A model generated the notes under the pieces. It was given only the letters and a program-made list of their open reading frames with translations, had not been told where the DNA came from and searched no databases. From Oscillospiraceae bacterium (lineage in GTDB: Bacteria; Bacillota; Clostridia; Oscillospirales; Oscillospiraceae), in NCBI GenBank assembly GCA_009781855.1, contig WQUY01000013.1:1-49963 (forward strand): 49,963 nucleotides of DNA, read 5' to 3'. Made by a program: the position numbers and the translations under genes. This document shows, piece by piece, positions 539-16,073 of the stretch (position 1 is the stretch's first letter; the number at the start of each line of letters is the position of its first letter).

Positions 539-3500
539 TTATGCTTCACTCTTTTCGAGTTTAATCTTTCTGACCCCACCGCGGGCATCGTACAGATATC
601 CATCGCCTAGAGGCAAAGGTTTCCTAAAATCACGAGCAACCTCAGCGCCCCACTTATTTGCACCGAAAAGTTTGACTTCCAATATATCATCAAACAAGAA
701 ATACTGCGAGAGTTCACGGGCGTGTTTCATCATCTCCGGCACCGAATATTCGGGGTTGTTGTCTATATTTGAGAGTATAAAACAAATCTTTAGTCGTCTG
801 GCATCGGCAAGCAATTTCTTAAACTGGTCGCTTACCGCTTTAGCAATCGAATTGGCCGTATAAATCTGTGGGTTTTGTACTACACAAAGCAGAAGCGGCT
901 CGTCTTCAAGACCCTCACCCGAGCGCAGCATATTCATACGAAGCTCTGCAATGTCAGAGAATTCCTGCACAATATTTTCAAAATCAGCATAATCTATCGT
1001 AAACTTTTCCACTATGCCAAAGTTTTCAAACTCCGCAAGTTGCCGTTCATAACCATCAACAAGATATACTTTGCATTGCAAATCGAAAACGTGACGCTGC
1101 AAGTACTTCATCAGCAAGCGCACAAGGTTGCTCTTGCCGAATCCCTCCCTGCCATAAATGCCTATAGAACCAACATCGGCTAGATTTATCGTAACAGGCT
1201 CAATACCGCTGTAGGTCAGCCCAACAGGTACAATAAAGCCACCAAATGAATAATTGCTTTGCACCCAATATTCTGAGGTCAGCACTGCCGGTATCGATGC
1301 GATAGCACGGGCTCTTTGAGCGCCATATATCTCTGAAATCTCTGAGATAAGCGCCCTTATCTGCTCGTTACGAATACTCTCAGTTTCACCGTCGTATGTC
1401 AGAAATGCCTGAAATTCATAAATAACCTTATCAATGGAGATAAGGCCGCGCCCTTCGATATCTTTTGGCAATATGCGACATTTATCAAAAATCGAACCAT
1501 ATTCAGCACTTTCAGTGCAGTTGAGCGCAATTCTCGTTGAGAAATTGCCAAAATACTTGTAGCTCAGCCCGGAAGCTTGTTTTGCAGTGGCTATGACTGT
1601 AATGCCCAACGAAAGACCTTCTCGGCATATATTAAGCATATCATCAGCATAAATCTCATACGTATCCTTAAACATCGTAAGGTTATCGACCATGATTACA
1701 ATTCTCGGTATCGAAGGGCTTTGTGCGCCTTCCATCTCAACAAATGCTTCGTACGAGCTTAGCCCTAACTCAGAGAAGCGTTCTTTTCTGGCATTTATTT
1801 CCTCATTGATTAGCTTAAAGAAATTCTTCAGCCTCTCATCGTCCTCATCGGTAACAACACCGCCGACATGATTTAATCCATTATAAATTTTCAGTACCTT
1901 CGAAGCAAAATCTACTATGTAGACTGCTGTCTGCTTGGGCGACGATGTTTCTGCAATCGCTCGCAAAATCGTTTGCAGAAGCATTGTTTTGCCTGTTTGA
2001 GCCGAGCCAATTATCATCACATTGCCCTCGGAAAGATTGATGCCATACTCAGGCTGCCGCTGATTACCCGGATCATCATATACCCCAACATTTATGAGCG
2101 TCGTGAGTGGAACAATCCTATCACGGCTGTATGCGACAACCTCTGGAAGAGGCGGCAAACATATGTTGGGCAGTCTTTTTATATCTTGTTTCACACAGTA
2201 TGAATCTATATAGTCAATTATGGATTTGAGCTGCGTAATTACCTCCCCATCGTTGGTGCGCTCTGCCTTGCGCTCATACACGACAGATCTTTTCCCGGTA
2301 AAAGAAACCTCCGAAATCACAAATTCGCGGATGTTACCACTTGTATCACTCACAGCAGAGGCTCCGCTGTAAGCCGACTGAAAGAGTGTGAAAATCTCAT
2401 TATTACCCACTTGAAGATATGCCCTGCCCGGCTCGCGGATTTCAGAAGCCAGTGGAGACTTGATTACTTCGTTACTATCTTCTTTTGTAGCAACTTTAAG
2501 GCATAGCTTAAAACGCGAATTGCTCCAAATCTGCTCGTTTACTTGACCTGCAGGTTTTTGCGTGGCGAGAATCAGATGTATACCCAGGCTTCGCCCTACA
2601 CGTGCCGTGCTGATAAGCTCTTTCATAAACTCCGGTTGCTCAGCTTTCAGCTCAGCAAACTCGTCAACGATCAATATCAGGTGCGGCAAAGCCATAGTTG
2701 CCACTTTACTGCGGAACTTTGCAATATAGTCATCAATATGATTGACTTCAAATTCAGCAAAAAGTCGCTTTCTCTTTTCAAGTTCGGCGCGAATGGAAAG
2801 GAGCGAACGATTGATTTCGTGATTGTCGATATCAGTGATTTTGCCGACAAGGTGCGGCAAATTTTCAAACTGGTTTGCCATGCCGCCGCCTTTAAAGTCG
2901 ATTATTACAAATGCAACCTCATATGGGTGGAAATTTACAGCCGCAGAGAGAATGTAAGACTGCATAATTTCACTCTTTCCCGACCCGGTCATACCCGCGA
3001 TTAACCCGTGAGGCCCATGAGCCTTTTCATGCAAATCCAACACAAGCTGCGCACCTTTAACATCAACGCCAAGCGGGGCGGCAAGCGATTTCTGAACATC
3101 TGCTTTTGACCACCTGTCGATAAGATCCAGATTCTCCGGCGATATGATGTTCAGCAATTCAAAAAGTGAAATGTTGGACGTAAGCCTTGATGAAAGCGCT
3201 ATTTTTTCGCAAAACACCGGCGCAAGGCGCTCTGAAACAAACGCTATGCTATCATCGTTTATATGCTCTTTTGTGAATGGGCAAGCATAAGCCTTGTCCT
3301 CTCTGAGCCTTAAAACACCACCATCACCGCTGAGCTGAACGATTTCTTTGCAATACTGCGGGAGGCTTTCCATATACGGTTTGAAGTATATAAAGCTCAG
3401 GCCGAGCTCAGAGCAATTTTCCGCAAAGTTAAACAGCGGATGTGTTTTAAGGCCGTATTCTTCAAGAACAAATACAACATAATGCGGAAGAGGCAACTCC

Positions 3501-5125
3501 GACGACACCCCTGCACCTGCCCTCTGTGCATTGCGGTCAGACAAAAGCGCATAAAGATGCTCAAAAACATGGTCACGACCCTCTATGTCGCAAACGATCC
3601 CACGCATACCTCCGCTTGATTCCTTTAAGTGAGGAATCCATTTTATCCATTCATACTTTTCTCTATCTTCCTGCGGAAGCATTATGACGGTATATACATC
3701 TTCATAATGGTGGGATACCATGATATCAAGCAACAAGTTCTTGAAAAACTCATATTGAGCTTCACGCGAACCAATAACACCTACAGTGCCCGATTCTCGC
3801 AAATGGAGCATAACAGGGGCATCATTTATATTCGCATATTGAGTGCTCAGCTGCTCTGGCAATACCATCAGCTCATTTGCAGTCTTAACAGCCTCTTCCT
3901 GAACAAAATCAGGTGTCCGCATAGCTGGGACACACCCCAAACCTATGCGTACATGTAAAAAATCGGTATCTTTCGGACAACGCTCATAGAGTCTGCCGGA
4001 AAATGTTTTTACAAAATCCCGGATTTCTTTCATGGATGGATATGTGTCAATGCGCTCGGCAAGTTCCCTTTGTTGTTCTGACTCAATCTCCAGACGTTTT
4101 TTGTCAATGTATGCAGTATAGTCACCGTTCCAATCGGCAAGGTCTTTTTTATATTGTCTTCTATTTTGCATAAGACTTGCAGCCGATGCAAGCACACCCA
4201 CACCCATGCTGGCAAGGCTAAAAATCATAAAGCCCATACCACCTATATTCCCAAGTCCCGGAATCATTCCGCTTCGGGTAATGACTACTACTGCCGCCAT
4301 TAAAATAGCTGGCATAAGTGACATCACAATGTTTCCCTTAGGTTTTTCTGGTTTTTCTGGTGGGCCGAGAATTTTAATCGGGGAAGTATCAAAAGCATAA
4401 AGCATTCTTGGGCTTCGGTTGAGCTTGGGGTAGTCAAATGCCGGAGTTTCATCTCTTAGCGGTTGAGCATTCAGCCCTTTTAAAAACAGGTCACTGCGTG
4501 CTGTTGTGTACAAAAGTCCATTTCTGAAATAAAAGCTATAGTCGGCAATGCCGATAAAATCGAATTCTTTAACCTCTGCCTTGTCAAACACACGAATACC
4601 GTTTAGTGTCGCACTGGTTCGCGCATTTGCCGCATTGAGCACATAAGTGTCTGAATTTTTGCGCGATAAGTTTATGTATTCACCAGCGGCAAACGCACTA
4701 CTCAAAAAAACTTGAGCCTTGGGCGTATCGCCTATAATGAAGTCAGTCATATTTCGAATATCAATGATTGTATCAAAATTTATCGCATTTACAGTTAAGT
4801 CATATGAAAAAGACAGAGAAAGCAATTCTGACTTGTCAGAAGCGCTACATACAAAAATAACGTCGCCGTGACGCAGCTTAGTTTCTGCACAATCAGGCAA
4901 ACCTCTTGAAGCAAAAAATAGCTCCCCGGTACAGGAAACTCGCCACTCATCTTCTATAAACGCAAGTGTCAAAAGAACAGGGATGTTAAACAAGTCGTGT
5001 TTGAGCCGCACATCACACTCCTGCAATGTCCCGATTTTTATTTCCGGAGTGTCGCTTGAAACATCAACTTCTTTGAATACATTGCTGTTTTGAATGGTTA
5101 ATATATACCTTTGCTTCTTAGACAT
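539..5125 (-). CDS. essC: EssC/YukB-type FtsK/SpoIIIE ATPase of a type VII (Esx) secretion system
   Basis: Large membrane motor ATPase of Gram-positive type VII secretion, expected to drive export of WXG100 proteins. Residues about 1-200 hold two FHA-like modules. Two membrane segments lie near residues 268-308, encoded around 4200-4320. Three P-loop domains follow: the first has GMTGSGKS near 717 and LILIVDEFAEL as Walker B, the second has GSAQTGKT near 1042 with a VDN in place of DE, and the third has GREGFGKS near 1330 with a degenerate Walker B. This strong-first, weak-later pattern is typical of EssC. The start at 5125 has GGAGA five bases upstream. An alternative ATG at 5155 overlaps the upstream stop (ATGA) but has no good ribosome site. 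It is the last gene of the operon. N-terminal FHA-like domains next to a kinase, phosphatase and FHA protein suggest control by phosphothreonine binding, which is an inference. Confidence 0.93.
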   Translation of the reverse strand: MSKKQRYILTIQNSNVFKEVDVSSDTPEIKIGTLQECDVRLKHDLFNIPVLLTLAFIEDEWRVSCTGELFFASRGLPDCAETKLRHGDVIFVCSASDKSELLSLSFSYDLTVNAINFDTIIDIRNMTDFIIGDTPKAQVFLSSAFAAGEYINLSRKNSDTYVLNAANARTSATLNGIRVFDKAEVKEFDFIGIADYSFYFRNGLLYTTARSDLFLKGLNAQPLRDETPAFDYPKLNRSPRMLYAFDTSPIKILGPPEKPEKPKGNIVMSLMPAILMAAVVVITRSGMIPGLGNIGGMGFMIFSLASMGVGVLASAASLMQNRRQYKKDLADWNGDYTAYIDKKRLEIESEQQRELAERIDTYPSMKEIRDFVKTFSGRLYERCPKDTDFLHVRIGLGCVPAMRTPDFVQEEAVKTANELMVLPEQLSTQYANINDAPVMLHLRESGTVGVIGSREAQYEFFKNLLLDIMVSHHYEDVYTVIMLPQEDREKYEWIKWIPHLKESSGGMRGIVCDIEGRDHVFEHLYALLSDRNAQRAGAGVSSELPLPHYVVFVLEEYGLKTHPLFNFAENCSELGLSFIYFKPYMESLPQYCKEIVQLSGDGGVLRLREDKAYACPFTKEHINDDSIAFVSERLAPVFCEKIALSSRLTSNISLFELLNIISPENLDLIDRWSKADVQKSLAAPLGVDVKGAQLVLDLHEKAHGPHGLIAGMTGSGKSEIMQSYILSAAVNFHPYEVAFVIIDFKGGGMANQFENLPHLVGKITDIDNHEINRSLLSIRAELEKRKRLFAEFEVNHIDDYIAKFRSKVATMALPHLILIVDEFAELKAEQPEFMKELISTARVGRSLGIHLILATQKPAGQVNEQIWSNSRFKLCLKVATKEDSNEVIKSPLASEIREPGRAYLQVGNNEIFTLFQSAYSGASAVSDTSGNIREFVISEVSFTGKRSVVYERKAERTNDGEVITQLKSIIDYIDSYCVKQDIKRLPNICLPPLPEVVAYSRDRIVPLTTLINVGVYDDPGNQRQPEYGINLSEGNVMIIGSAQTGKTMLLQTILRAIAETSSPKQTAVYIVDFASKVLKIYNGLNHVGGVVTDEDDERLKNFFKLINEEINARKERFSELGLSSYEAFVEMEGAQSPSIPRIVIMVDNLTMFKDTYEIYADDMLNICREGLSLGITVIATAKQASGLSYKYFGNFSTRIALNCTESAEYGSIFDKCRILPKDIEGRGLISIDKVIYEFQAFLTYDGETESIRNEQIRALISEISEIYGAQRARAIASIPAVLTSEYWVQSNYSFGGFIVPVGLTYSGIEPVTINLADVGSIGIYGREGFGKSNLVRLLMKYLQRHVFDLQCKVYLVDGYERQLAEFENFGIVEKFTIDYADFENIVQEFSDIAELRMNMLRSGEGLEDEPLLLCVVQNPQIYTANSIAKAVSDQFKKLLADARRLKICFILSNIDNNPEYSVPEMMKHARELSQYFLFDDILEVKLFGANKWGAEVARDFRKPLPLGDGYLYDARGGVRKIKLEKSEA

Positions 5126-5151
5126 ATCTTCTCCATATTGTTTCGAAATTT

Positions 5152-5403
5152 TCATTTCGAAATTATTATAACGCTTCCGTCTCGAATGCCGTATTCACGC
5201 AGTGTCCGCTCACCGCGCAAAAGCGCTGTGGGCCGCTCTGATTTTAGGTAGTACTGCCTCACGTCTCCGTAGTACTCAGGAAGAAATTTTTGGTAGATAG
5301 CCGAACAAAGCTCGCTGGCCGAAATGTCGAGCGGTATCTCAATATCATGCTTCTTGCCCAGCCGCACAATATTCAGCGTCACAATAACATGGCTTGATTC
5401 CAT
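5152..5403 (-). CDS. esaB: EsaB/YukD-like ubiquitin-fold protein
   Basis: Small protein of about 83 residues with a beta-grasp pattern (VIVTLNIVRLGKKHDIEIPL, then a helix, then LREYGIRDGSVIIIS). It matches the YukD/EsaB family, the ubiquitin-like cytosolic component of firmicute type VII secretion. It lies directly upstream of the EssC-type gene, which is the usual neighbourhood. The ATG at 5403 is preceded by AAGGTG. A GTG at 5409 is the alternative. The role in other species is regulatory or assembly-related and not fully resolved; here the call rests on fold pattern and context. Confidence 0.8.
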   Translation of the reverse strand: MESSHVIVTLNIVRLGKKHDIEIPLDISASELCSAIYQKFLPEYYGDVRQYYLKSERPTALLRGERTLREYGIRDGSVIIISK

Positions 5404-5470
5404 ACACACACCTTATTTTCATCGTATTGAGAGGGTCGTTAAACCGGGATGCCAGCTTATAAATACTTGC

Positions 5471-6250
5471 TTATTGCCTGTTTACTACGAGAACTGTAAT
5501 ATTGTCTTTGCCGCCCTTTTTCAGTGCAGCGCTTACCAGCTCATCAACCATTTTGTTCATGTCTGAATTTGCTATCATGATTTCTTCAATTTCAAAATCC
5601 TCAAGCATGTCAGTCAATCCATCGCTGCATAATAATATGAAGTCTCCATTTTCCATCTGAAACTCAGGAAAAACATATGGCTGTATCTCCATATCGCTTG
5701 GAAATACACCAAGATGCTGCGTCAGCGTGTGTCTGCACGCGTGTTCCCGAGCCTGTGCAGGTGTCAGAAAGCCCATCTCTACCATTGTTCTTATCTCTGT
5801 GTGGTCGCGCGAAATCTGTTTGAGTTTACCGTCCCGGAGCAGATATGCCCTGCTATCTCCAATGTTACATATGTCTACCGTGTTTTCAATGACACAAGCG
5901 GCCACAAAAGTCGTTCCCATTTTCCGAGTACCACGGCTGGTCATTTCAGCACAAATTCTGTCGTTGGATTCCACAACATATTTGCTAAATAATTCAGCCA
6001 CAGGCAAGTCCAGATATTCATTACGAGTAAAAACATCATACAATGCGTTCACTGCCAAAACAGAGGCTACCTCACCGAAGGTACCCCCACCCATACCATC
6101 ACAAACGGCGTATACACCACATGCGTTCGCTGTGTTATCACAGGAATCCACCGCACTTTCTGGGTCTCTTATTATTCCGTTGAGAAAATAATTGTCTTCA
6201 TTTTTATGACGAACTTTTCCAACATGGCTTGAAACGGCAGAAACTAACAT
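5471..6250 (-). CDS. PP2C-family serine/threonine protein phosphatase
   Basis: A 259-residue PPM/PP2C phosphatase of the Stp/PrpC type, expected to remove phosphate from Ser/Thr residues using two Mn/Mg ions. Visible motifs in order are RHKNEDNYF near the N-terminus, VCDGMGGG (metal-binding Asp and Gly), GTTFVAA, NIGDSRAYLLRDG, LLCSDGLTDML and GGKDNITVLVV. All metal-ligand aspartates appear present, so it should be active. No membrane segment is seen. It lies in the same operon as the membrane kinase (10524-12995), two FHA-containing proteins and the Esx genes, so the natural substrate set is that kinase and its targets. A 237-base gap holding a palindromic element separates it from the upstream FHA gene. 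Confidence 0.93.
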   Translation of the reverse strand: MLVSAVSSHVGKVRHKNEDNYFLNGIIRDPESAVDSCDNTANACGVYAVCDGMGGGTFGEVASVLAVNALYDVFTRNEYLDLPVAELFSKYVVESNDRICAEMTSRGTRKMGTTFVAACVIENTVDICNIGDSRAYLLRDGKLKQISRDHTEIRTMVEMGFLTPAQAREHACRHTLTQHLGVFPSDMEIQPYVFPEFQMENGDFILLCSDGLTDMLEDFEIEEIMIANSDMNKMVDELVSAALKKGGKDNITVLVVNRQ

Positions 6251-6272
6251 AGGCTATCGTCCCCAAATCTCC

Positions 6273-6439
6273 CTGGTGTAGCGTATTTCAAATAACTGGA
6301 CTTTAATTGTGGTAGATTTTTTCGTCTGGCGAGGAAAAATATTGCAGGAATACCACGGGTCTTTTAAGATATTTTGACAAAGTCAGGCGGAAAAAGATGC
6401 CCTAAGAAAAGGCTAGTTATTTGGAATACGTTACACTAG
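6273..6439. mobile_element. MITE-like long palindrome inside the secretion operon
   Basis: The ends CTGGTGTAGCGTATT... (6273-6299) and its counterpart at 6413-6439 are 27-bp inverted repeats matching at 23 of 27 positions. Pairing continues inward with interruptions: about 30 further bases on each arm align, including a CTTT, a TTTTT and a CTG block. All four end mismatches would be G-U pairs in RNA from the plus strand. It encodes nothing and has no transposase. No clear target duplication is visible. It could be a non-autonomous element or a structured RNA between phosphatase and FHA genes. Confidence 0.55.
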
Positions 6440-6487
6440 TACAGTATCTCGTAAATAACGCGTAATGAACCCATCTCATTACTCAGC

Positions 6488-6871
6488 TCAGATATTTATA
6501 AACATAGTTCCCTCTGCAAACGCCTTCATTTGGTCATGCGTAGGTATGTTCAGCTCATCGACCAAAAGCTCTATCCGTCCGCAGTTGATTTTATCACCTA
6601 TATTAAGCGGTGCAATCGCATACAGCTCTTTTCCATTGAGCTTCGTAACATTAGTTTGGCTGATATTCTCAATAAAAACGCTACCGTTAATGAATATTCT
6701 GCATTGTTCACGAGAAACGCTTTTTTCAATGATTTGAATCCGGCATTCATCAGCCCGCCCGATTACGACCGCACTCCAAAGCGAGGCCTCCCAAGCCTGC
6801 GCCTCATCGTCTGCATTTTTCAAGCGGATGTAAGGTTCGCTGTATTGTGTTGAATTTTGCATATCCGTCAT
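6488..6871 (-). CDS. FHA-domain protein
   Basis: A 127-residue protein made almost entirely of one forkhead-associated domain, a phosphothreonine-binding beta sandwich. Visible signatures are VVIGRADECRIQI (the Gly-Arg loop), KSVSREQCRIF (the Ser loop, with Glu-Gln where His is usual) and NVTKLNG (the Asn-Gly loop). There is no signal peptide or membrane segment, so it should be cytosolic. It starts three bases after the stop of the upstream WXG100 gene, with GAGGGT before the ATG. With the operon's own kinase and PP2C phosphatase it forms a write-read-erase set; the bound partner is unknown. Confidence 0.87.
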   Translation of the reverse strand: MTDMQNSTQYSEPYIRLKNADDEAQAWEASLWSAVVIGRADECRIQIIEKSVSREQCRIFINGSVFIENISQTNVTKLNGKELYAIAPLNIGDKINCGRIELLVDELNIPTHDQMKAFAEGTMFINI

Positions 6872-6874
6872 AGG

Positions 6875-7174
6875 TTACCCTCTAAACACTTGCGCAATTT
6901 GCGAGTCGGTTTCACGAATCGTATGCGCAGCACCATTGAGTTTTTGATACATTGCATAAATGACCTGCGGAAGGGTGTCGTTAAGAACCGGGAAAAGCAT
7001 TTCGTCGTATTGCTCCAAAAACGCAATTTGCGCCTGCCCTTCCCAGCGCTCTGAAATTTCTCTCACCTTGGCATCAAGTTGTTGCACAAGCTGCGAAATT
7101 TCCTGCTGCCTGTCATATAGGTAGCGCGCACTATCTTCTATTTCGTCCGGGGTCATCCTTATTCTACCAGTCAT
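6875..7174 (-). CDS. WXG100-family Esx protein
   Basis: A 99-residue helical-hairpin protein with the central W-E-G turn (REISERWEGQAQIAF). It matches WXG100 proteins, which are dimeric substrates and structural partners of type VII secretion. Length and helix-turn-helix layout are standard. A GGGGG ribosome site precedes the ATG. It is separated by 14 bases from another WXG100-type gene upstream; the two may form a heterodimer like EsxA/EsxB. No clear C-terminal YxxxD/E export motif is seen in this one. Confidence 0.9.
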   Translation of the reverse strand: MTGRIRMTPDEIEDSARYLYDRQQEISQLVQQLDAKVREISERWEGQAQIAFLEQYDEMLFPVLNDTLPQVIYAMYQKLNGAAHTIRETDSQIAQVFRG

Positions 7175-7188
7175 TTGTTACCCCCGCC

Positions 7189-7503
7189 CTAAAGCTGTGC
7201 ATTTGATACAGCGTCTGCAGCCGTAAAAACCTCTTCGTACATGGTCACAGCAGTTTTGAGGTTGTTACTCATCTGCTCAAGCACCTGTGAGTAATCTTTC
7301 AGGTTGTTTAGCAATTGTACGTCAAACTTCCTAAAAAACTCATCTCCAGCTTCCGAACGCCAGTCGATTTGCAGCTGTGCAAAAGAAGCTTGCAATGCAT
7401 TGCTTAACTCATATAGCCGAATGCTGCTTTCCTGTAGCGACATACCCGAGCTTCTGAGCAAGTCGATATCAATAGTTAAAATATTGTTTCCGAGCAACGA
7501 CAT
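7189..7503 (-). CDS. WXG100-like Esx protein with variant WRS turn
   Basis: A 104-residue all-helical protein with the pattern LQIDWRSEAGDEFF. The usual W-x-G turn is replaced by W-R-S, followed closely by A-G. Size, helical periodicity and position beside a true WXG100 gene make it an Esx-type partner. AGGAGG lies seven bases before the ATG. In known heterodimers only one partner often keeps a canonical export signal; here the tail carries TMYEEVFTAADA rather than a clean YxxxD/E. Likely role: co-secreted partner or structural subunit; certainty about function is moderate. Confidence 0.82.
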   Translation of the reverse strand: MSLLGNNILTIDIDLLRSSGMSLQESSIRLYELSNALQASFAQLQIDWRSEAGDEFFRKFDVQLLNNLKDYSQVLEQMSNNLKTAVTMYEEVFTAADAVSNAQL

Positions 7504-7513
7504 CTTAACCCTC

Positions 7514-8821
7514 CTAACTTACCCTGAGTTCTTCAGGGAGCATTGTGTTTGCTATTTTTGTTTCCGTTTTCGCCTCGTCAAGCCTTCCGAGTTCCTCAAG
7601 AATTGCTGCACGAATCATGCGAGGTTCTGGGTTTTCAGGTGTTAGTGTTATCACATAATCTATAAGCTCAAGAGCATGATCACACTGGTTAGAGTCTTTG
7701 AGGCACAAGCATCTGAGAAGATAAGCATCCAGGTTTCCGGGTGTCGCAAGCGCCTGATTGCGAAATTCGCTTATCGCCTCCTGGAATATGGGAAAGGCCT
7801 CATCCATTCGGCCAAGCCGTTTGAGCGCAAGCGGCTCATAATATCTTGCGGCATTTGTAAAATATTCGTTCTCAGAATTATTTATTATTTCTCGTGAACA
7901 CTCCAACAGCTTTTCAAAATCCTCTGCCGCTAAATAGCAGTGAGACATCAGGAATAGGACTTCCGAATCTGGTGTACCATTTTTTCTTGTCAATACATCC
8001 GCTTTATTTAATTCTGAGATTGCCGAATTGACATCCTCACACATCGTATGTATTCTCGCACGAACCAAATAGATGTTGCGCAGTGCAGAATCCGTTAAAT
8101 TTCCTATGCGTTCAACTTCATTCAGAAGCGTCGAAGCTTCGTCATTCTTTTTCAGTTCGATAAGGAGTGTGACCTTATCCAGCACAAAATCAATGTTTCC
8201 GGGAAACATCTCCATTGCATGATTTAAGACTTCTTCTGCCTCCTTAAACCGATGCATATCAAGCAAAATCGAAAATTTCAGATGGTATCCTTCAGAAACA
8301 TCTGGGTTTGAAAGGATTGTTTCGTCCAACGCTTGCAGAGCCTCAGGGGTCTGACCCAACTTAATAAGCACCAACACTTTGCGAATGCGTATATCCGGAC
8401 GCAAAGCATCACGCATAATCGCCTTTGAGTAGTTTCGCAACGCCGTCTCAAAATCACCGTTTTCTTCGTGCAACAAGGCAATGCTGTAGTAGACCTGAGC
8501 ATCATCAAAACCGTTCGAAATAGCTTTGTTGTAGTTTTCAAATCCCAGTGCTATATTGTTTTGCAAAATTTCAATACTACCGAGATGATAGTAGACAACG
8601 CCTGCCGCACGATTTACCTTCAACGCTTTCTCGAACTGTCCTCTTGCTTCGTCTAGTTTATCGAGATTTGCATAAGCGACGCCTTTTGAGATATAAATCT
8701 CGATTTCCATCGGGTTTTCCCGCTCAGCCTTTTCGTAATACTTAATCGCCTCTTCGTATTTACCTTGACTTTCCATAACTGCGCCTTGCGTCAGGTATTC
8801 TTTTACTTGCAACTCATCCAT
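7514..8821 (-). CDS. tetratricopeptide repeat protein
   Basis: A 435-residue protein made of about ten tandem TPR units, for example GKYEEAIKYYEKAERENP near the N-terminus and GRLDEAKTETKIANTMLP near the C-terminus. No signal peptide or membrane segment is visible, so it should be a cytosolic scaffold or chaperone. It sits between two unrecognised small proteins and the WXG100 pair, ten bases before the latter. TPR proteins can bind substrates for export, but a chaperone role here is only an inference from position. GGGAGG precedes the start. Confidence 0.85.
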   Translation of the reverse strand: MDELQVKEYLTQGAVMESQGKYEEAIKYYEKAERENPMEIEIYISKGVAYANLDKLDEARGQFEKALKVNRAAGVVYYHLGSIEILQNNIALGFENYNKAISNGFDDAQVYYSIALLHEENGDFETALRNYSKAIMRDALRPDIRIRKVLVLIKLGQTPEALQALDETILSNPDVSEGYHLKFSILLDMHRFKEAEEVLNHAMEMFPGNIDFVLDKVTLLIELKKNDEASTLLNEVERIGNLTDSALRNIYLVRARIHTMCEDVNSAISELNKADVLTRKNGTPDSEVLFLMSHCYLAAEDFEKLLECSREIINNSENEYFTNAARYYEPLALKRLGRMDEAFPIFQEAISEFRNQALATPGNLDAYLLRCLCLKDSNQCDHALELIDYVITLTPENPEPRMIRAAILEELGRLDEAKTETKIANTMLPEELRVS

Positions 8822-8824
8822 TAT

Positions 8825-9523
8825 TTAGTTCCTCCCAAAGACTCTGGCCATCCCAGAATCTTTGCCTGAGGCTGTGCCGTTTCGCCATCGTGAAATCACT
8901 TCATCTTTGAGACTACCCCTTGGCTTTACAGCCTGAAGTGTTGAGAAAATCAGAGCAGCAATCAACGATATCCTGCCGCCTTGACATAAATTTTCTGCTA
9001 TTACTGATGTGGCGACCGGCATTGCCATAAATGCAGATAAGCCACTGCCGCTGCTGCTATTCCACCAATCACGAATCGCAGTTGCAGTTCCGGCCATTGG
9101 CGCTGTGCGCAATTCTATAATTCCTCCGAGTGCCGAAATACTGCCTGTCCCGACCCAAAGTGCTGACAGAAATGGCCTGATCCCCGACGACTGCAAAGAT
9201 GCATGTCCGTTAAAATTGTTTCGGCTGTTGGCATATATCATATCCTTCACCCTACCATCAACCTCTCGGGCTGTTGATTCCAGTGTTGCAATGCGGCTAC
9301 TCAAAGCTCGAGCATTTTCGCTGCGTACGCTTAACTCCCGGATTTTTCTGCTTGTCATATAGTCGGCATTAGTCAAGTTAGCACTCATGCCTCCATCGAT
9401 AAGGTGCAAACGGGCGCCCACTCTCCCAGACAATTTGTCGGCATATGAATCCATAGCCTCAGCAACTCTGTCACTGTTTCTTATCGCATTTCCCAAGTTG
9501 TTAAATCTAAGTGTTAATGCCAT
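8825..9523 (-). CDS. unrecognised protein, possible Esx substrate
   Basis: I do not recognise this 232-residue protein. The N-terminal half is helical and polar (for example SYADKLSGRVGARLHLIDGG, then ARALSSRIATLESTAREVDG), recalling the helical targeting region of Esx-dependent proteins. The C-terminal half has Gly/Ala-rich hydrophobic stretches (SALWVGTGSISALGGI, and FMAMPVATSVIAENL up to LIAALIFSTLQAV) that could insert in membranes. There is no signal peptide. GGGAG precedes the ATG. It is flanked by a coiled-coil protein and the TPR protein in the operon. It could be an effector, a pore-forming substrate or a structural part; no choice can be made from sequence alone. Confidence 0.7.
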   Translation of the reverse strand: MALTLRFNNLGNAIRNSDRVAEAMDSYADKLSGRVGARLHLIDGGMSANLTNADYMTSRKIRELSVRSENARALSSRIATLESTAREVDGRVKDMIYANSRNNFNGHASLQSSGIRPFLSALWVGTGSISALGGIIELRTAPMAGTATAIRDWWNSSSGSGLSAFMAMPVATSVIAENLCQGGRISLIAALIFSTLQAVKPRGSLKDEVISRWRNGTASGKDSGMARVFGRN

Positions 9524-9560
9524 ACCTTTGCTCCCTTTTGCTTATTATCCGCATCTACAT

Positions 9561-10019
9561 CTACACGCTGCCAACTACTACGCCTTCTTCGACTTGCAAT
9601 TGCGCAGTCGCCGCGACTATAGCCGCCCGTAATCCTGCAATGTCGTCATTTGCCTGCGCAATTGCTGCTGCGGCAAGCACAATTTGCTCCTCAGTCTCTC
9701 CCCGCTCACGAACTATATCTCCATCTGCAGCAGTAAGACATTCGTCTGTACCAATACCATTTTCAGGTGCGTTTGCAAACAGATCGGAAACTTTTGCATC
9801 TGTTAAAGGATTTGCCATCGCTCGCATAAGCATGTCCCCGCTGGCTTGTATCCACAGGTTAACATCCGAAACATTAACGGCTACTTCCCACTTCAGCGTC
9901 TTGTCAACATCTGTAATATCTTTTAGTCGCCGCTGTAGCATATTTTTTCTTTCAGTATAATGCGCAAGCCTTCGCTTCATTTCAGCCAGTTGCGCTTGCA
10001 ATTGCGATAGAGGAGACAT
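9561..10019 (-). CDS. small coiled-coil protein, YwqH/DUF5082-like
   Basis: A 152-residue protein. The N-terminus (SPLSQLQAQLAEMKRRLAHY, then TERKNMLQRRL) is strongly heptad-like and the C-terminal part (RERGETEEQIVLAAAAIAQA) is helical. The layout resembles the small DUF5082/YwqH proteins found beside Esx substrates, but I cannot confirm this. The ATG at 10019 is preceded by AAAGGGA; a longer frame opening at 10052 would add 11 residues containing that ribosome site and is less likely. It lies between a WXG100 gene and the 232-residue protein and could be a partner or targeting chaperone. Confidence 0.7.
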   Translation of the reverse strand: MSPLSQLQAQLAEMKRRLAHYTERKNMLQRRLKDITDVDKTLKWEVAVNVSDVNLWIQASGDMLMRAMANPLTDAKVSDLFANAPENGIGTDECLTAADGDIVRERGETEEQIVLAAAAIAQANDDIAGLRAAIVAATAQLQVEEGVVVGSV

Positions 10020-10111
10020 AGTAAAGATCATCCCTTTCGGTTTTTTCGGCACAAAACAATCATGGACAAATGATTATTTGTGTATCATTTACGCTTTTAT
10101 CCAGAGGGCAA

Positions 10112-10128
10112 GCAAGACATTGTCTTGC
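10112..10128 (-). other. intercistronic hairpin after WXG100 gene
   Basis: GCAAGAC-ATT-GTCTTGC is a perfect 7-bp stem with a 3-base loop, downstream of the WXG100 gene and upstream of the coiled-coil gene. A second small stem (AATCAT...ATGATT) lies at about 10059-10077. Without a U-tract it is more likely an RNA-processing or partial termination signal that would raise WXG100 expression relative to downstream genes. Confidence 0.45.
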
Positions 10129-10165
10129 AAGAGTTTAGGTTCATCAAGTCTGTCTATCCTTGTTG

Positions 10166-10480
10166 TTAAATATCTCTAAATGCCGCAGTAATCTCTTCGT
10201 CGGCTGCCGTATATGCCTTTTGAGCATTGGCAAGGGCATTGCCTATTTCGTCCATTATTTCTTCTATATCCTGCAAGTTGAGCTGTACTTGTCGGGCATC
10301 CACTTCAAATGCCTCTGAGCCGACCCCCATCCAAACATCTGTAAGCTCCTGCACAGTCGCGCTAACGTCGCTTACTATCCGGCTAAGCTCGCTACGATGT
10401 TTCGCATACGATGCAATAGTATCTTCAAAGTTAACGGTATCCAGATGCCCTACATCGCTGCCGCTTCCACTGCTTGACAT
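10166..10480 (-). CDS. WXG100-family Esx protein with YxxxD tail
   Basis: A 104-residue helical hairpin with W-M-G at the turn (ELTDVWMGVGSEAFEVDARQ) and a C-terminal KAYTAADEEI that fits the YxxxD/E general type VII export motif. It is the second gene of the operon, right after the kinase, with GGAGAGG before the ATG. A Ser/Gly-rich N-terminal tail (SSSGSGSD) precedes the first helix. It is the best candidate in the window for a secreted Esx subunit. Confidence 0.9.
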   Translation of the reverse strand: MSSSGSGSDVGHLDTVNFEDTIASYAKHRSELSRIVSDVSATVQELTDVWMGVGSEAFEVDARQVQLNLQDIEEIMDEIGNALANAQKAYTAADEEITAAFRDI

Positions 10481-10523
10481 AAAATTCCCCTCTCCTGTTG
10501 CATTTCGGTATACTTGTAGTTAA

Positions 10524-12995
10524 TTAATGTGCACGGGTAAACGTCCTTATAATCGCTCCGCTGGCATTTCGTTCAAATATCCTATCAAACTTGCATCCGC
10601 AAAAATATTGGAAAGTTTCTGAAACCACTAAGTTTCTCTCGTCATACCTTCTGCTGAGCGGACGCACTGCTCCTTGCCCATGGCGTGAATCTTGACATCC
10701 TTGCGGAGTTTGGACAGAACCAGGTTGTTCTTCAGGTGCTGCCGCATTGGTCTGGGGCGCACGCGGTGTGGTGGCAACCGGCACAAGCTCCCAGCCTCCG
10801 CGACTGTTCATGCGGTAGTTTCTGGTTCTCCTAACGCTGCCGTTGTTGTTAAACTCTTGTATTCTTCGTGCCGTCGCCGCACCAGCATTGTTATAAGTAT
10901 ATTCAGTCGTGCGTGTTCTTACATTTGCACCGCTAAATTCTTGCACCGAAATGAGCAAGGTGCCTGCGGCGTTGTACGTGTTTACAACTCTGCTTCTTTG
11001 ATTCCCGCGTGAATCTAAGATGGTTTGTTGCGTAACGTTTCCGAATACATCAAACTCACGTGCATCAGCGCTACCATCGGAATCAAAGTCTGTTTGTTTG
11101 ATTAGGCTACCGCCCTCATCAAATTCATGAACACTGCGCAACAACTCATAGCCATCAGAAAAATCAAAATAGCTCTTGACTTTAGTTTCGCCGGATTCAA
11201 ACAACTCATAAACCTCGGCGCGCTTTAATGCACCATCTTCATCAAACCAGCGATTGCTCTTGCCGGAAAGCCTGTCGTATTCGTCAAATTCAAAGGCGTG
11301 CGATATTTCGATAATCCCATTTTCATTGAATCTTGCCGACAAAACCCTGTTGTCATTATCATCATGCTCAGCTTCCCACCAATGGCAAAGCGTCCCATCT
11401 TCATGGAAGAGTGTACGCCTTGCAACCAATCCGCAAGCAAAATACTCCACTTTCGAGCTCTTGATTCCAGTTTCACAGTGGTATTCAAATCTTAATAATC
11501 CGGTTACAATGCCGTCATCGTCAGTAATAATTTCTGCAATAAGCCTGCCGAGCTCGTCATATTCCCGACCATCGTCCTGGTCGTATGGCTCGTGCTCATA
11601 AGTGTATGAATCGGCGGCGTTGTTATCGTCGTCATATACAACAGGCACCACTTCCTCTTCAGGGGAGTAGGGTTCGCCTGCAAACACTGCCGCGGCATCT
11701 TGTGCAGGTGGCTCTGTATCGCCAGTTCCAAAAATGTTCAATCCAAAAATGAGCATTGCTATAACCAGCACCGCTGCAATAGGGCCGCCTATTTTAAGAG
11801 CAGTTCCTATTCTCTTTTTATTTGAAAGAAAACTTAATCTTCCGACGACACTTTGCGTTTTTTGCTCTTCACCATTATCGGTGGGTTCATTTGTTTGCTG
11901 AGCAAAATCAACAGGCACAACTTCCTGTTGCCTTTCACTCCACAACAAACTCTCCGTGGGTTCATTCGCCCCACTTCCCTCGTCCAGATTAAGCAGGGTC
12001 ACATTATCCTCAACATATCCAAGCGATTTCAGCGGCGTTTCATCTCCAAGCGGATATATAACGGGCTTTTCAGCCACATTGTAAAGAAGAGCCTCAAGTT
12101 CCTCACGCATTTGTCTCGGTGAAGAATATCGTTCGGCAGGACTGTAAGAACAAGCTTTCAATACAATCTCAGAAAGTCGTCCATCAGCGTTTTTAGGAGC
12201 TGGCATTTGCACGCCAGTCATACGCTTTGCATTTGCAATTTCCTTGTCATTATGTGTGATTTTTTCCGGATAGTTAGGTAAAAATGGTGTGCGGTTTTCA
12301 TTAAGAAGTCGGTATAGGACTATGCCCAGAGAGTAAATGTCAACATTTGAACCATAGGACTCACCGCGGTACATTTCTGGAGCCATGTAAGTGTATGTAC
12401 CTTTTTTTGAAAGCCCGCCTGTTGTCTTTTCCATGGTGCGGGCAGTCCCGAAGTCCCCGAGTTTAAAGTCGCCCGTGTCACTTACAAAAATATTTTCTGG
12501 TTTGATGTCCCTGTGGATTATGTTGTATCTCTGGCATAACTCAAGCGCCTTGCACAAGTCTATACCCATTTGCATGATATCTTTTCGGGTCAGTGTACGG
12601 CTTTGGGCATAATCAAGCAGCGGCGTCAACAGCTCCATACGGATGATGATGTCCCATCCTATTCTGTCTTCGTGCGCCACAACGTCGTGATCCTCACAAC
12701 TGACTATATTGCTGTTTCCTTTGAGTTTTGACATCAGAGAAAACTCTTCTACGAGCTCCTCGACAAAATTTGTAAAATATGCAATGACGTTATTTTCAGT
12801 CATACCGTCCGACATCACGCTTTTAATCTCGCCCGGATTCTGTGGTATGGTAATAATTTTTATTGCGGCTTTATACACTTGACCAAAGCCGTTGCGTTCC
12901 GCTTCAAAAACACGGCCATGGCTTCCCTCTCCGATAGAGCGAACCAAGTTCCACTTGCTGAGCACTTCGTCTCCCAAGTTGTATTGCCCATTCAT
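10524..12995 (-). CDS. membrane Ser/Thr protein kinase with outer repeat domain
   Basis: An 823-residue protein, first gene of the secretion operon. Residues about 13-300 are a complete eukaryotic-type kinase: the Gly loop SIGEGSHGRVFEAE, a catalytic HRDIKPENIF, DFGTAR, an activation segment with TTGGLSKKGTYTYMAPE, and a DIYSLGIVLYRLL helix. All catalytic residues look intact. One membrane segment (about 400-423, IGGPIAAVLVIAMLIFGLNI) follows a polar linker. The outer part (about 425-823) holds repeated units like EYDELGRLIAE and FDEGGSLIKQTDFDSDGSAD, resembling YD/RHS-type strand repeats, and ends with a Cys-rich YFCGCKFD. There are no PASTA domains. The layout (kinase fold, membrane segment, outer domain) parallels EssB, whose kinase fold is inactive; this one should be active. 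A replacement for EssB is an inference. Confidence 0.92.
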   Translation of the reverse strand: MNGQYNLGDEVLSKWNLVRSIGEGSHGRVFEAERNGFGQVYKAAIKIITIPQNPGEIKSVMSDGMTENNVIAYFTNFVEELVEEFSLMSKLKGNSNIVSCEDHDVVAHEDRIGWDIIIRMELLTPLLDYAQSRTLTRKDIMQMGIDLCKALELCQRYNIIHRDIKPENIFVSDTGDFKLGDFGTARTMEKTTGGLSKKGTYTYMAPEMYRGESYGSNVDIYSLGIVLYRLLNENRTPFLPNYPEKITHNDKEIANAKRMTGVQMPAPKNADGRLSEIVLKACSYSPAERYSSPRQMREELEALLYNVAEKPVIYPLGDETPLKSLGYVEDNVTLLNLDEGSGANEPTESLLWSERQQEVVPVDFAQQTNEPTDNGEEQKTQSVVGRLSFLSNKKRIGTALKIGGPIAAVLVIAMLIFGLNIFGTGDTEPPAQDAAAVFAGEPYSPEEEVVPVVYDDDNNAADSYTYEHEPYDQDDGREYDELGRLIAEIITDDDGIVTGLLRFEYHCETGIKSSKVEYFACGLVARRTLFHEDGTLCHWWEAEHDDNDNRVLSARFNENGIIEISHAFEFDEYDRLSGKSNRWFDEDGALKRAEVYELFESGETKVKSYFDFSDGYELLRSVHEFDEGGSLIKQTDFDSDGSADAREFDVFGNVTQQTILDSRGNQRSRVVNTYNAAGTLLISVQEFSGANVRTRTTEYTYNNAGAATARRIQEFNNNGSVRRTRNYRMNSRGGWELVPVATTPRAPQTNAAAPEEQPGSVQTPQGCQDSRHGQGAVRPLSRRYDERNLVVSETFQYFCGCKFDRIFERNASGAIIRTFTRAH

Positions 12996-13438: not shown

Positions 13439-14464
13439 TTATGTCACAACTATGTTTTTTTCTGTTCTGGGGATTACTTCACCGACAAGGCAGCAGGGTG
13501 GGTTTTGTCCGCCTAGGGCTTCTAGCAGCGCTTCGGCATCATCTTTGTGAACACTTATGAGCAGGCCACCCGATGTTTGCGGATCGAATAATATTTCTTC
13601 TATGGGCATTGAAAGTCCTTGCAGATTCACCTCGTCTTGCAAATACATACGGTTCGTTGTTCCGCCGCCGGTCATTAGGTACTCGGCGGCTAGTCTTTGC
13701 GCTTCCTTTATATATAGCACATTTCCAGAGTTTATGTGAATCGAATATTCGGGCGTGACCATTTCATTGAGATGCCCCAGAAATCCAAATCCGGTCACAT
13801 CTGTGCAGCTATGAATCCTGAATTTTTTTGCGATTTCAAACGCATGCTTGTTTAGCCGTTGCATACTGTTGATGGCTTCCTGATAGCTTTCTTCAGAGGC
13901 CTCGCCCGCCTTATATGAGGTTGTAACAAGCCCCACTCCGAGCGGCTTGGTCAAAATAATTTTGTCACTGATTTTGCAGCGATTGTTATACATGATTTTT
14001 TCAGGATGCACAACACCGGTGACTGAAAGGCCATATTTCGGTTCATTATCTTTTATGGAATGACCCCCGCAAAGCACGCCTCCGGCTTCAATCACTTTCT
14101 CTGCCCCACCTCGTAAAATCTCTGCAAGTATTGCGGGGTCTTCTTCCTCCGGAAAGGCTACAATGTTCAGTGCGGTTTTCACTTCACCGCCCATTGCATA
14201 GATATCACTGAGCGCATTGGCCGCAGCAATTTTTCCGAACAGGTATGGGTCATTGACCATTGGTGGAAAAAAATCAAGTGTGTTGATTATGGCTATATCG
14301 TCAGATAATTTATAAACAGAGCCATCATCAGATGTGTCAAATCCTACCAGCAGATTTGGGTCATTTGGCTTGGGTATATTAGATATTGCATCTTGCAGCA
14401 TTCCATGCGGCAATTTGGCAATTCAACCACCACAAGCCGTGAAGTTTTTTAGGGTTTTAGCCAT
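13439..14464 (-). CDS. selD: selenophosphate synthase, selenocysteine-containing (TGA codon 14)
   Basis: Makes selenophosphate from selenide and ATP, the selenium donor for selenocysteine and selenouridine. A conventional reading begins only at a TTG at 14413, but the frame continues upstream through a TGA (14425-14423) to an ATG at 14464 with AGGAG eight bases before it. The restored N-terminus is MAKTLKNFTACGGUIAKLPH. U14 and K17 match the catalytic Cys-x2-Lys spacing of SelD (Cys17/Lys20 in E. coli). The body has the expected motifs (LVGFDTSDDGSVYKL, GGHSIKDNEPKYGLSVTG, CTDVTGFGFLGHLNEM, DPQTSGGLL). Full length is 341 residues, as usual for the family. It is the last gene of a selenium operon. 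Selenoprotein SelD is known in some bacteria; selA, selB and selC are not in the window. Confidence 0.95.
14393..14425 (-). promoter_or_regulatory. UGA-Sec codon and SECIS-like hairpin of selD
   Basis: Right after the TGA (14425-14423), TTGCCGCAT and ATGCTGCAA pair around a GGA loop (14404-14402) with a single central C/U mismatch. The loop lies 18 bases after the TGA, within the spacing used by bacterial SECIS elements, and has a G at its first positions. It should recruit SelB. Confidence 0.75.
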
Positions 14465-14527: not shown

Positions 14528-14755
14528 TTACACTATTTCATAATTGCCGCTGGCGGTTATCGTGTAGCAGCAGTCCATATCCTCATGGTCTGCTGTATTT
14601 TTCGTGTAGTCGCCGTCAAAATATACACAAACGCCGCAGGAGGCGCTGAGTCCACGTGGAACAGGTGCCATTTTTGAAGGCATTTTGTTCTTCTGACAGT
14701 ACTTATTAAATTGCAGTGCGCCATAGTGGGTGTGGAATGTAGCCAAATAATTCAT
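14528..14755 (-). CDS. DUF3343 putative selenium/sulfur carrier protein
   Basis: A 75-residue protein with Cys-rich segments (SASCGVCVYFDG and EDMDCCYTI). It matches the small DUF3343 proteins found with SelD, YedF and YedE and thought to carry or relay selenium. The N-terminus (YLATFHTHYGALQFNKYC) is typical of the family. It lies 12 bases after yedF and 63 bases before selD on the same strand. Its exact biochemical role is not established; the call rests on sequence pattern and neighbours. Confidence 0.8.
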   Translation of the reverse strand: MNYLATFHTHYGALQFNKYCQKNKMPSKMAPVPRGLSASCGVCVYFDGDYTKNTADHEDMDCCYTITASGNYEIV

Positions 14756-14767
14756 ATGCTATTGTCC

Positions 14768-14974
14768 TTATTTGGTCAATGTCATCGTATAGAGACCGGT
14801 TTTCCCTTCAACCGCTACGCTAAAGCCTTTGGATTCAGCAAAGCGTTTGCAGTTTTCAACGCAGACTTGACTATCGACCAATAATTCTATTTCATTGGCA
14901 TCATCTATGACTTGCCTGAGTTTGAGCACCGGCTCGGGGCAAGAGAACCCCAGCGCGTCTACAGTAATCTTCAT
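14768..14974 (-). CDS. yedF: TusA/SirA-like selenium metabolism protein YedF
   Basis: A 68-residue TusA-fold protein with the signature CPEP (ALGFSCPEPVLKLRQVID), whose Cys is the thiol carrier site in TusA. The C-terminal half adds VCVENCKRFAESKG. The association with YedE, DUF3343 and SelD indicates selenium rather than tRNA thiolation as the pathway. It lacks the second C-terminal domain found in longer YedF proteins, a part whose role may be supplied by the separate DUF3343 gene. Confidence 0.87.
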   Translation of the reverse strand: MKITVDALGFSCPEPVLKLRQVIDDANEIELLVDSQVCVENCKRFAESKGFSVAVEGKTGLYTMTLTK

Positions 14975-15017
14975 ATTGTACCATGCCTTTCACAATTTGC
15001 AATAATTCGGGTAGAGA

Positions 15018-16073
15018 TTAATCTGCCGAAGATTTTTTTGAATTCATAATGGCAATAACAAAAACAACGATGACACATACGAAAAACGCAATACGTCCAT
15101 TGCTCGTTGTACCTGCCGCCGAAGAGGCAAGGCCGAAATTATGCACAAGTGCAGCGCCGACCAAAAAGCCCAGCACAGTTACACTGGAATCACTACTTCC
15201 TGAACCTGCCATAATCAGCTGGCGCATGGGGCAACCACCCAAAAGTGTTGAGCCAAACCCTACAAGATACAAGCCAAGAACATTCCATAACCACTCATTG
15301 TGAGCCACAGGCTGTCCATCAAAGCCTAGACGAAAACTTCCGGTGATCAAATTTCCGGCAAAGACAACCACCAAAATAACCACAAATCCAATCAGCATAT
15401 GAAAGTCTTTAAATAGGACAACATCACGTACTCCGGCAATGAAACAAAGCCGTGAACGTTGCGCTACCACGCCAACAATGAGGGCACCGACCAACGAAAT
15501 CAGGAAAGGGGCATGCATTGAGCCGAGACCGCTCTGACTAAAGAAAACAAATGATGGAGCAGCGATAAGTGCAACAAGCAGTAAAATGCTGACAAAAGGC
15601 ATGCCCAGGCCTTCTGCGAGCGGTTGACTATAATTGCGTTTGAGGGAAAATCCTCGATTCAAAAATACGATACCTGTCAGTATCCCACCGGCAAATCCTA
15701 CCAGCCCAACCAAGGCATTTAGGTCTCCTCCTGCAATGCGCAACACCATCCTCGTGGGACATCCAAGAAAAATGAGCGCACCAATCATGACGCAGATACC
15801 AAGGATAAATCTGGTCAGCGGCGATGAGCCACCTTTGGGTGCAAAATCTTTTTTTATCAGCCCAATGATAAAGGAGCCAAGCACAAGACCCATAACTTCA
15901 GGGCGGATATACTGCACAGCTTCAGCTCTGTGCAAACCAAGAGCGCCGGCGGTATCACGAATAAAGCAAGCCACGCAGAGTTGCATATTACTGGGGTTAC
16001 CGTAGTGACCAAGACATATGGACACAAGTCCTACAATTGCCCCAGCGATAATTATACCCCATTTTTTCTTCAT
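15018..16073 (-). CDS. yedE: YedE-family selenium/thiosulfate-type membrane transporter
   Basis: A 351-residue polytopic membrane protein of the YeeE/YedE (DUF395) family, with about nine to ten hydrophobic segments in two repeated halves. Each half contains a conserved Cys motif in or near the membrane: GCPTRMVLRIAGGDLNALVG and GGCPMRQLIMAGSGSSD. Additional cysteines occur at VACFIRD and SRLCFIAGVRDV. Homologues import thiosulfate through Cys relay; the version linked to SelD is taken to import a selenium compound. It is the first gene of the leftward selenium operon. Confidence 0.88.
   Translation of the reverse strand: MKKKWGIIIAGAIVGLVSICLGHYGNPSNMQLCVACFIRDTAGALGLHRAEAVQYIRPEVMGLVLGSFIIGLIKKDFAPKGGSSPLTRFILGICVMIGALIFLGCPTRMVLRIAGGDLNALVGLVGFAGGILTGIVFLNRGFSLKRNYSQPLAEGLGMPFVSILLLVALIAAPSFVFFSQSGLGSMHAPFLISLVGALIVGVVAQRSRLCFIAGVRDVVLFKDFHMLIGFVVILVVVFAGNLITGSFRLGFDGQPVAHNEWLWNVLGLYLVGFGSTLLGGCPMRQLIMAGSGSSDSSVTVLGFLVGAALVHNFGLASSAAGTTSNGRIAFFVCVIVVFVIAIMNSKKSSAD

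Follow-up and report, generated by a model that had tools for sequence, protein, structure and literature searches.

A type VII secretion operon of an Oscillospiraceae bacterium that includes Ser/Thr kinase and PP2C genes, with a free FHA protein as the likely phosphothreonine reader

Genes of the operon and its surroundings

We analysed a window of 49,963 nt, contig WQUY01000013.1 of an Oscillospiraceae bacterium, and found a leftward operon of 11 genes at 539-12995 on its minus strand. In the order from 12995 to 539 the genes are the following.

10524..12995, minus strand: Ser/Thr kinase, 823 aa (Pkinase 1.3e-37; catalytic motifs; RHS_repeat 3.9e-5 on the C-terminal part)
10166..10480, minus strand: wxgA, WXG100 protein with WMG and a C-terminal YxxxD, YTAAD (WXG100 2e-12)
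9561..10052, minus strand: p163, probable YwqH-like partner of the substrate (family match to PF16888)
8825..9523, minus strand: p232, putative secreted substrate, short form (similarity to the relatives' family)
7514..8821, minus strand: TPR protein, 435 aa, possible scaffold or chaperone (TPR_19 1.4e-34)
7189..7503, minus strand: wxgB, WXG100-like protein without W-x-G (WXG100 1e-8)
6875..7174, minus strand: wxgC, WXG100 protein with WEG (WXG100 3.3e-14)
6488..6871, minus strand: free FHA protein, 127 aa (FHA 9.4e-12; GR and SR kept; tail GTMFINI)
5471..6250, minus strand: PP2C phosphatase, 259 aa (PP2C_2 5.6e-15; alignment)
5152..5409, minus strand: EsaB/YukD-like protein (Pfam YukD 3.1e-9)
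539..5155, minus strand: EssC ATPase, 1538 aa (TIGR03928 1131 bits; FHA residues; tree)

The spacing is mostly tight, with intergenic gaps of 43, 113, 37, 3, 10, 14, 3, 237, 61 and -4 bp in the order of transcription. All eleven frames are open and a purine-rich stretch lies 5' of most starts (by eye). EssC is the last gene, followed by 538 contig bases with frames on the opposite strand. Pfam and NCBIfam confirmed the EssC, EsaB-like, kinase, PP2C and free FHA genes at the place and on the strand that a preliminary description of this DNA had assigned to them. The TPR (7514-8821), p232 (8825-9523) and p163 (9561-10052) genes were absent from that description. An EssC-type FtsK ATPase (TIGR03928 cut-off 778 bits; Pfam FtsK_SpoIIIE 1.1e-50) and WXG100 proteins are thus encoded in one locus, as in a type VII secretion system (T7SS) in the broad sense.

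The whole genome gave three WXG100 matches at E <= 0.001, all inside the operon. The three genes had already been described as WXG100-type and all match the Pfam family, but wxgB has no W-x-G, which was also absent from all seven counterparts in relatives. YxxxD is an export signal. It is present near the end of the window's wxgA, and 6/7 relatives' loci have it at the site that aligns (alignment by eye).

With PF16888 (YwqH-like), six of the 13 aligned members of the p163 family score E <= 0.1, the best value being 1.9e-11; the window's own p163 is not among the six. The p232 protein is 29-35% identical over 132-167 N-terminal amino acids to its counterparts in all seven relatives' loci; it has 232 aa in the window versus 452-602 aa in the relatives, whose C-termini vary in the alignment. 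Its window copy had no Pfam match, and the family profile matched no solved structure. Assignment of p232 as an LXG protein was rejected, as no LXG domain was among the matches listed by Pfam and NCBIfam for the window's p232 or the five scanned relatives. Because of the gene order, the YwqH-like neighbour and the variable C-terminus, we consider p232 a putative substrate. By analogy with LXG operons, wxgA, p163 and p232 would form a partner-partner-substrate set. Three p232 relatives gave weak SseC-like matches (8.6e-4, 0.0055 and 0.44), and the strongest of them (L025:14632-16356) is a hint of a membrane-inserting substrate. A small protein with hydrophobic stretches follows the p232 relative in loci L024 and L087. 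The TPR protein is 50-61% identical to its counterparts in 7/7 relatives' loci, and at E <= 1e-60 its gene was found in 1/295 genomes of the window's order, namely the source genome itself.

Base composition did not indicate recent transfer (44.5% GC in the operon, 45.1% in the rest of the window), and no RNA family scored over cut-off in the window. A promoter-like site 5' of the kinase (13082-13053, 11/12) is one of 28 such sites, with 26.6 expected by chance. The selD frame just upstream of the operon (13439-14464) contains an in-frame TGA at 14423-14425 (context CGG*IAK), so SelD itself is probably a selenoprotein. The next genes, 14528-16073, are presumably selenium-cluster genes. A plus-strand frame at 2-334 of the window, open at the contig edge, has the look of a HicB-type antitoxin (by eye).

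Related loci, EssC and the search for EssA, EssB and EsaA

A contig scan found 193 relatives; we kept the best 80, which make up 79 loci. A quick tree built from 82 EssC proteins placed the window and loci L024-L029, L060 and L087 in a clade of nine (support 100), the eight relatives being 59-67% identical to the EssC of the window. The loci among which this clade is nested have DUF6382-FHA-like and TadZ-like genes. Since L029 is cut off after EssC and L026 and L060 belong to one assembly, there are seven readable loci from six assemblies. That shared assembly (Lapin-020 bin26) has two copies of the system, with kinases of 947 and 724 aa and different p232 C-termini.

The order EsaB, EssC, wxgA, p163, p232, TPR, wxgB, wxgC, FHA protein was found in all seven readable loci. 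In the window, the block from wxgA to the FHA gene has the same order but is placed before EsaB and EssC. The kinase lies 5.7-7.4 kb from EssC in 7/7 readable loci, in L028 on the opposite side of EssC. The check for conservation of the whole gene set, proposed in the preliminary description, showed that the kinase and the FHA protein are kept in all seven, but PP2C is not constant. The gene set is therefore real and conserved apart from PP2C. It is sporadic in the window's family, where an EssC match above 500 bits was observed in 3/61 genomes (G000, G008 and G028), the other matches being short and FtsK-like.

Residues D51, G52, D210, D249 and N250 of PP2C are invariant in an alignment of six sequences. 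A PP2C match lies on the EssC contig in 2/6 relatives' genomes with a readable locus (L024, L087); for L025, L026/L060, L027 and L028 it was found solely on other contigs, some of their EssC contigs being short. The phosphatase is thus present in the window as described, but its standing as a fixed part of the system is weakened. In the PP2C tree, which carries long-branch warnings, the window copy stands beside L089, L024 and L087 (support 92/89).

We searched the whole source genome for EssB (PF10140), EsaA (TIGR03929) and EssA (PF10661) and found none at E <= 10, which agrees with their reported absence from the operon; with each of the three profiles, the B. subtilis control scored over cut-off. 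The source assembly, of which the window is contig C13, is 92% complete (2.40 Mb, 134 contigs), so absence in this genome alone is not proof. The genomes of the clade, seven in number (G061-G066 and G095; loci L024-L029 and L087) and including strains of Thermoclostridium caenicola and Acetatifactor muris, likewise gave no EssB match at E <= 0.001. Among 41 genomes (39 of the genomes of the 79 loci, plus G008 and G028), EssB scored over cut-off in two, G008 and G071, with weak matches below cut-off in two more. Since G008, of the window's own genus, has EssC next to EssB (L103), the T7SSb hallmark does occur in the genus. A second EssC of G008 lies on another contig (L104), where, by eye, several WXG100 proteins, a soluble vWA protein and a protein resembling LytTR are encoded as well; L104 also has PP2C-like and kinase matches.

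The preliminary description had noted FHA-like domains on EssC. By alignment, these are two degenerate N-terminal regions covering about 235 aa, with GT (G at 42) in the first and GD (G at 142) in the second; FHA was not among the best 25 of 37 Pfam matches for this protein. We looked for the Arg that follows Gly in the FHA binding loop in an alignment of 70 EssC proteins, which contains the window and seven full-length clade members and leaves out proteins of <=1480 aa (12/82, including both EssB-linked ones). The Arg was present in 0/70 in FHA1, where Thr occupies the position in 63, and in 0/70 in FHA2. Because this Arg is missing, we rejected the EssC FHA domains as phosphothreonine readers. 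The same lack of Arg has been published for the EssC FHA domains of T7SSb, where the YukB FHA region is bound by the pseudokinase region of EssB, in a manner that the authors reason to be independent of phosphorylation (PMC9600267). The Arg-less EssC FHA domains fit this picture of docking without phosphorylation.

Free FHA protein, kinase and candidate phosphorylation motifs

The free FHA protein, the other reader of the preliminary description, fared better. The GR and SR of the phosphothreonine binding loops are present in 8/8 clade FHA proteins. We limit this statement to the eight clade proteins, since a count with one pattern over the partner FHA proteins of all loci matched 47/88, with 30 having Lys for Arg. 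The predicted phosphothreonine reader is therefore likely to be the free FHA protein rather than EssC. The interpretation given in the preliminary description is in this sense partly supported. Its gene follows wxgC in the window and in the seven readable clade loci.

In all seven of these relatives' loci the FHA protein is longer (504-647 aa) and, by profile, belongs to one family. The two that were scanned with Pfam, L024 and L087, have vWA and FHA domains, and in 7/7 the FHA part comes after a hydrophobic stretch. The vWA domain would lie outside the cell. The 127-aa window protein aligned to 93-120 columns in the C-terminal part of the long proteins from 7/7 loci, and so it is without the vWA-TM half.

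The kinase of the window is intact, as had been described: GEGSHGRV, AIK, HRDIKPEN, DFG and APE are all kept. The kinase domain (about 1-300) is followed by a linker with TESL and TQSV, a hydrophobic stretch from 402, taken as TM, and RHS/YD-like C-terminal repeats. In place of this weakly RHS-like C-terminal part, the L024 kinase has a TPR part (Pfam). The clade kinases are partly non-canonical, with DFN for DFG in 6/7 (L024-L028, L060), HSD for HRD in L026 and L028, and YRD in L087, which makes their activity unsure.

In the kinase tree, which carries long-branch warnings, the window kinase groups with kinases of L104 (G008), L059, L069, L070, L071 and L078; the branches that divide this group from the clade's own kinases have support of 100/100. 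The starred branches force three changes of kinase lineage within the EssC clade. A search for window-type kinases in 24 genomes, all picked for having EssC and seven of them already known to have the kinase beside it, gave 16 matches at E <= 1e-20. All ten matches above 250 bits, from seven genomes, lie <=10 kb from an EssC gene, and none of the six weaker ones does. What this search adds is that there is no further strong copy away from EssC in these genomes. The tree and the confinement of strong matches to the vicinity of EssC indicate that the window kinase and the window EssC have different histories, the kinase coming from another T7SS lineage.

In several clade kinases, the insert that separates SPE from SDIYSLG contains T-E-[ILV]-[ILV] repeats. 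Five kinases have 14 copies (L024 4, L025 3, L027 2, L060 4 and L026 1) against a mean of 0.13 in shuffled inserts (0/5000 as high), counts that are not independent because four of the five kinases are orthologues. The motif was first spotted in L024, L027 and L060, and L025 and L026 were not used to set it; the L026 kinase is on another tree branch than the other four. None was found in the kinases of L028 and L087.

The same motif was found between TM and FHA domain in the relatives' FHA proteins, 31-44 residues before the GR match. Its strict form occurs in 5/7 and a relaxed form (Phe, Tyr and Met allowed), set after the sequences were seen, in 7/7; the shuffled means were 0.05 and 0.08, with 0/5000 either way. 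As background in the seven loci, EssC has 2 strict and 6 relaxed matches in 10,721 aa, the TPR class 3 and 3 in 4,178 aa, the p232 class 0 and 1 in 3,727 aa, and the WXG100 proteins none in 2,229 aa. The FHA proteins also share a C-terminal tail, [TS]xF[IV]x[VIL], likewise set after the sequences were seen. It ends 8/8 clade FHA proteins, the window's included, with Thr in 7/8, and was found in 0/561 other proteins (some cut by contig ends). In FHA binding, the third residue after the phosphothreonine matters.

TE[ILV][ILV] was found neither in the window kinase nor in the window FHA protein. The latter has T8-Q-Y-S, with T8 30 residues before the Gly of GR, or 28 before the GR match as measured for the relatives. 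TESL/TQSV of the window kinase linker was matched by 157/5000 shuffles, and plain T..[ILVM] was not enriched there (2618/5000).

A possible phosphorylation switch, its alternatives and related systems

The operon appears to encode a T7SS variant related to T7SSf, T7SSe and T7SSj, and its sequences suggest that phosphorylation may switch export via the reader rather than the motor. In our preferred explanation the FHA protein is phospho-reader and switch, the kinase stands in the place of EssB and EssC docks it without phosphate; as a whole, we give this a nearly even chance of being right. By homology, EssC, EsaB and the WXG100 proteins would be the export core. The kinase, spanning the membrane once with its kinase domain in the cytoplasm and another part outside, would take the topological place of the pseudokinase EssB, and the Arg-less FHA domains of EssC probably dock its kinase domain as EssC does EssB in T7SSb. 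In the relatives, the kinase would autophosphorylate its T-E-[ILV]-[ILV] repeats and the FHA protein would be recruited there. The kinase would then phosphorylate Thr of the FHA protein beside or behind the FHA domain, as PknG does with GarA/OdhI, and PP2C, where present, may be the reset. The EssC core would thereby be opened or blocked to the wxgA/p163/p232 substrate set, and the TPR protein may act as scaffold. Since the window has a kinase of another lineage and an FHA protein without the vWA-TM half, its conserved Thr tail T-M-F-I is the main candidate switch site.

A wider reading, tentative and rather unlikely, would make this a T7SS subtype separate from T7SSa-j, with a live membrane kinase replacing EssB and a PknG/GarA-like switch that works with TE-hydrophobic docking repeats. 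Here the FHA protein itself would carry the TE motif, joined in the relatives by a vWA sensor on the outside. Both the sensor kinase and the outer FHA-protein half would be modules open to exchange, as seen in the window.

The kinase could also be a structural stand-in for EssB that docks the EssC FHA domains without phosphate, with phosphorylation mattering little. Its predicted topology is that of EssB, and EssB-EssC-type docking appears phosphorylation-independent (PMC9600267). The non-canonical motifs of several clade kinases, the low count of PP2C on EssC contigs (2/6) and the three forced changes of kinase lineage also point this way. However, the window kinase has intact catalytic motifs and the FHA protein kept GR and SR in 8/8, and we consider this alternative unlikely. 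Gating of EssC directly by kinase and phosphatase, with its own FHA domains reading phosphothreonine on a partner, is the model of the preliminary description and would agree with the FHA-like regions on EssC and with the well-kept phosphothreonine motifs on TsdC, TseC and TsjC (Garrett et al. 2024, PMC11217815). The lack of Arg in both domains, which extends to the window and all seven full-length clade members, speaks against it and makes it very improbable.

Kinase, PP2C and FHA protein might instead be a general envelope-stress pathway merely adjoining the export genes, as PP2C is not constant at the locus and PP2C proteins and weaker kinase matches also occur elsewhere in these genomes. 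This is improbable given that the 24 genomes, chosen for EssC, had no strong match to the kinase subfamily away from EssC, and that the FHA gene follows wxgC in the window and seven readable clade loci. Decay of the window copy to a locus no longer fully working could explain the short p232 and FHA proteins (232 versus 452-602 aa and 127 versus 504-647 aa). Against that stand eleven open frames, mostly tight spacing, purine-rich stretches 5' of most starts and intact kinase and PP2C motifs, which make decay very improbable.

If the FHA protein is the switch as we prefer, the motifs named above are testable with a few peptides. The EssB pseudokinase and the kinases of other T7SS variants would then fill the same place, and the EssC FHA domains would be a phosphate-free dock. 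We found no paper showing how kinase-bearing T7SS variants are switched and no other paper on this gene set in a literature search that covered few of the subscription journals.

The general idea of phosphorylation-controlled T7SS variants is already in print. Garrett et al. 2024 (PMC11217815) defined T7SSc-j by EssC phylogeny and neighbouring genes, including variants without EssA, EssB and EsaA; they reported that kinases, phosphatases and FHA proteins are often present in T7SSc-j and raised control by phosphorylation. Judged by neighbour genes and EssC FHA residues, the window locus seems to fit none of the Garrett variants tested. The vWA-FHA and TPR proteins of the clade are not described as components of one system in the available text of that paper (PMC11217815).

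The locus resembles T7SSf in its EssC with FHA domains, YukD-like, WXG100, PP2C and FHA-bearing components, its occurrence in Clostridia, and the nesting of its EssC clade among DUF6382-FHA-like/TadZ-like loci. It differs in that clade loci have a kinase, a TPR protein and, in the relatives, a vWA-TM-FHA protein, whereas DUF6382-FHA and TadZ-like proteins were not found. Profiles made from relatives gave neither near EssC in the window operon and the seven readable clade loci; the DUF6382 source scored 24.1 bits in Pfam, below the cut-off of 26.7, and the TadZ-like source was seen as ParA-type AAA_31. One match of L027 is about 6.5 kb distant, on the opposite strand, and has a ParA look. With T7SSj and T7SSe the locus shares a membrane kinase, PP2C, an FHA component and a YukD-like protein. 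TsjD of T7SSj is described with a TPR C-terminus, as is found in the L024 kinase (Pfam), whose orthologues by tree are those of L025, L027 and L060. In contrast to T7SSj and T7SSe, neither DUF6382-FHA nor a large protein of TsxI type was found near EssC, and the EssC FHA domains of the window clade are without the phosphothreonine Arg (GT and GD in the window). A TsxI profile, built from large secreted proteins taken for TsxI by size and N-terminus, gave no match near EssC in the window operon and the seven clade loci. T7SSc differs in that its EssC has no FHA domains, whereas the window EssC has an FHA-like region. T7SSb (Ess/Yuk) is alike in EsaB, WXG100 and an EssC with two degenerate FHA domains, but here EssA, EssB and EsaA were not found and the kinase may stand in the place of EssB.

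Outside T7SS, autophosphorylated Thr residues of PknG, which bears a TPR domain, recruit the FHA substrates GarA/OdhI (PMC8546545). Similarly, our candidate kinase sites lie outside the kinase core, and the FHA protein combines the Arg and Ser pocket with a Thr motif outside its FHA domain. However, the kinase here is a membrane protein encoded with a secretion ATPase, and TE-hydrophobic repeats, in five relatives' kinases, stand instead of ETTS. In T6SS, too, the secretion genes come with those of a kinase, a phosphatase and an FHA protein, which form the threonine phosphorylation pathway PpkA-PppA-Fha, with a parallel of PpkA, TssL and Fha (PMC3953482), but the secretion machine is unrelated.

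Other T7SS-linked loci contain motifs of their own. The FHA protein L096:7975-9594 is fused to a trypsin-like domain (Pfam); its cluster of 15 loci includes 7 with Butyrivibrio or Pseudobutyrivibrio in the title, and FHA proteins of L096-type loci have [DEGA]TT[VI]L motifs (16 in 16 proteins). At L059:1343-8868, three tandem kinases with closely related kinase domains and quite different C-terminal parts lie 5' of PP2C, EsaB and EssC. Five kinases, three of L059 and one each of L070 and L071, contain a T[VIAT]GM repeat 16 times in total (mean of 0.045 in shuffles, 0/5000 as high); it sits behind the kinase domain, mostly as EE[KEQ]TVGM.
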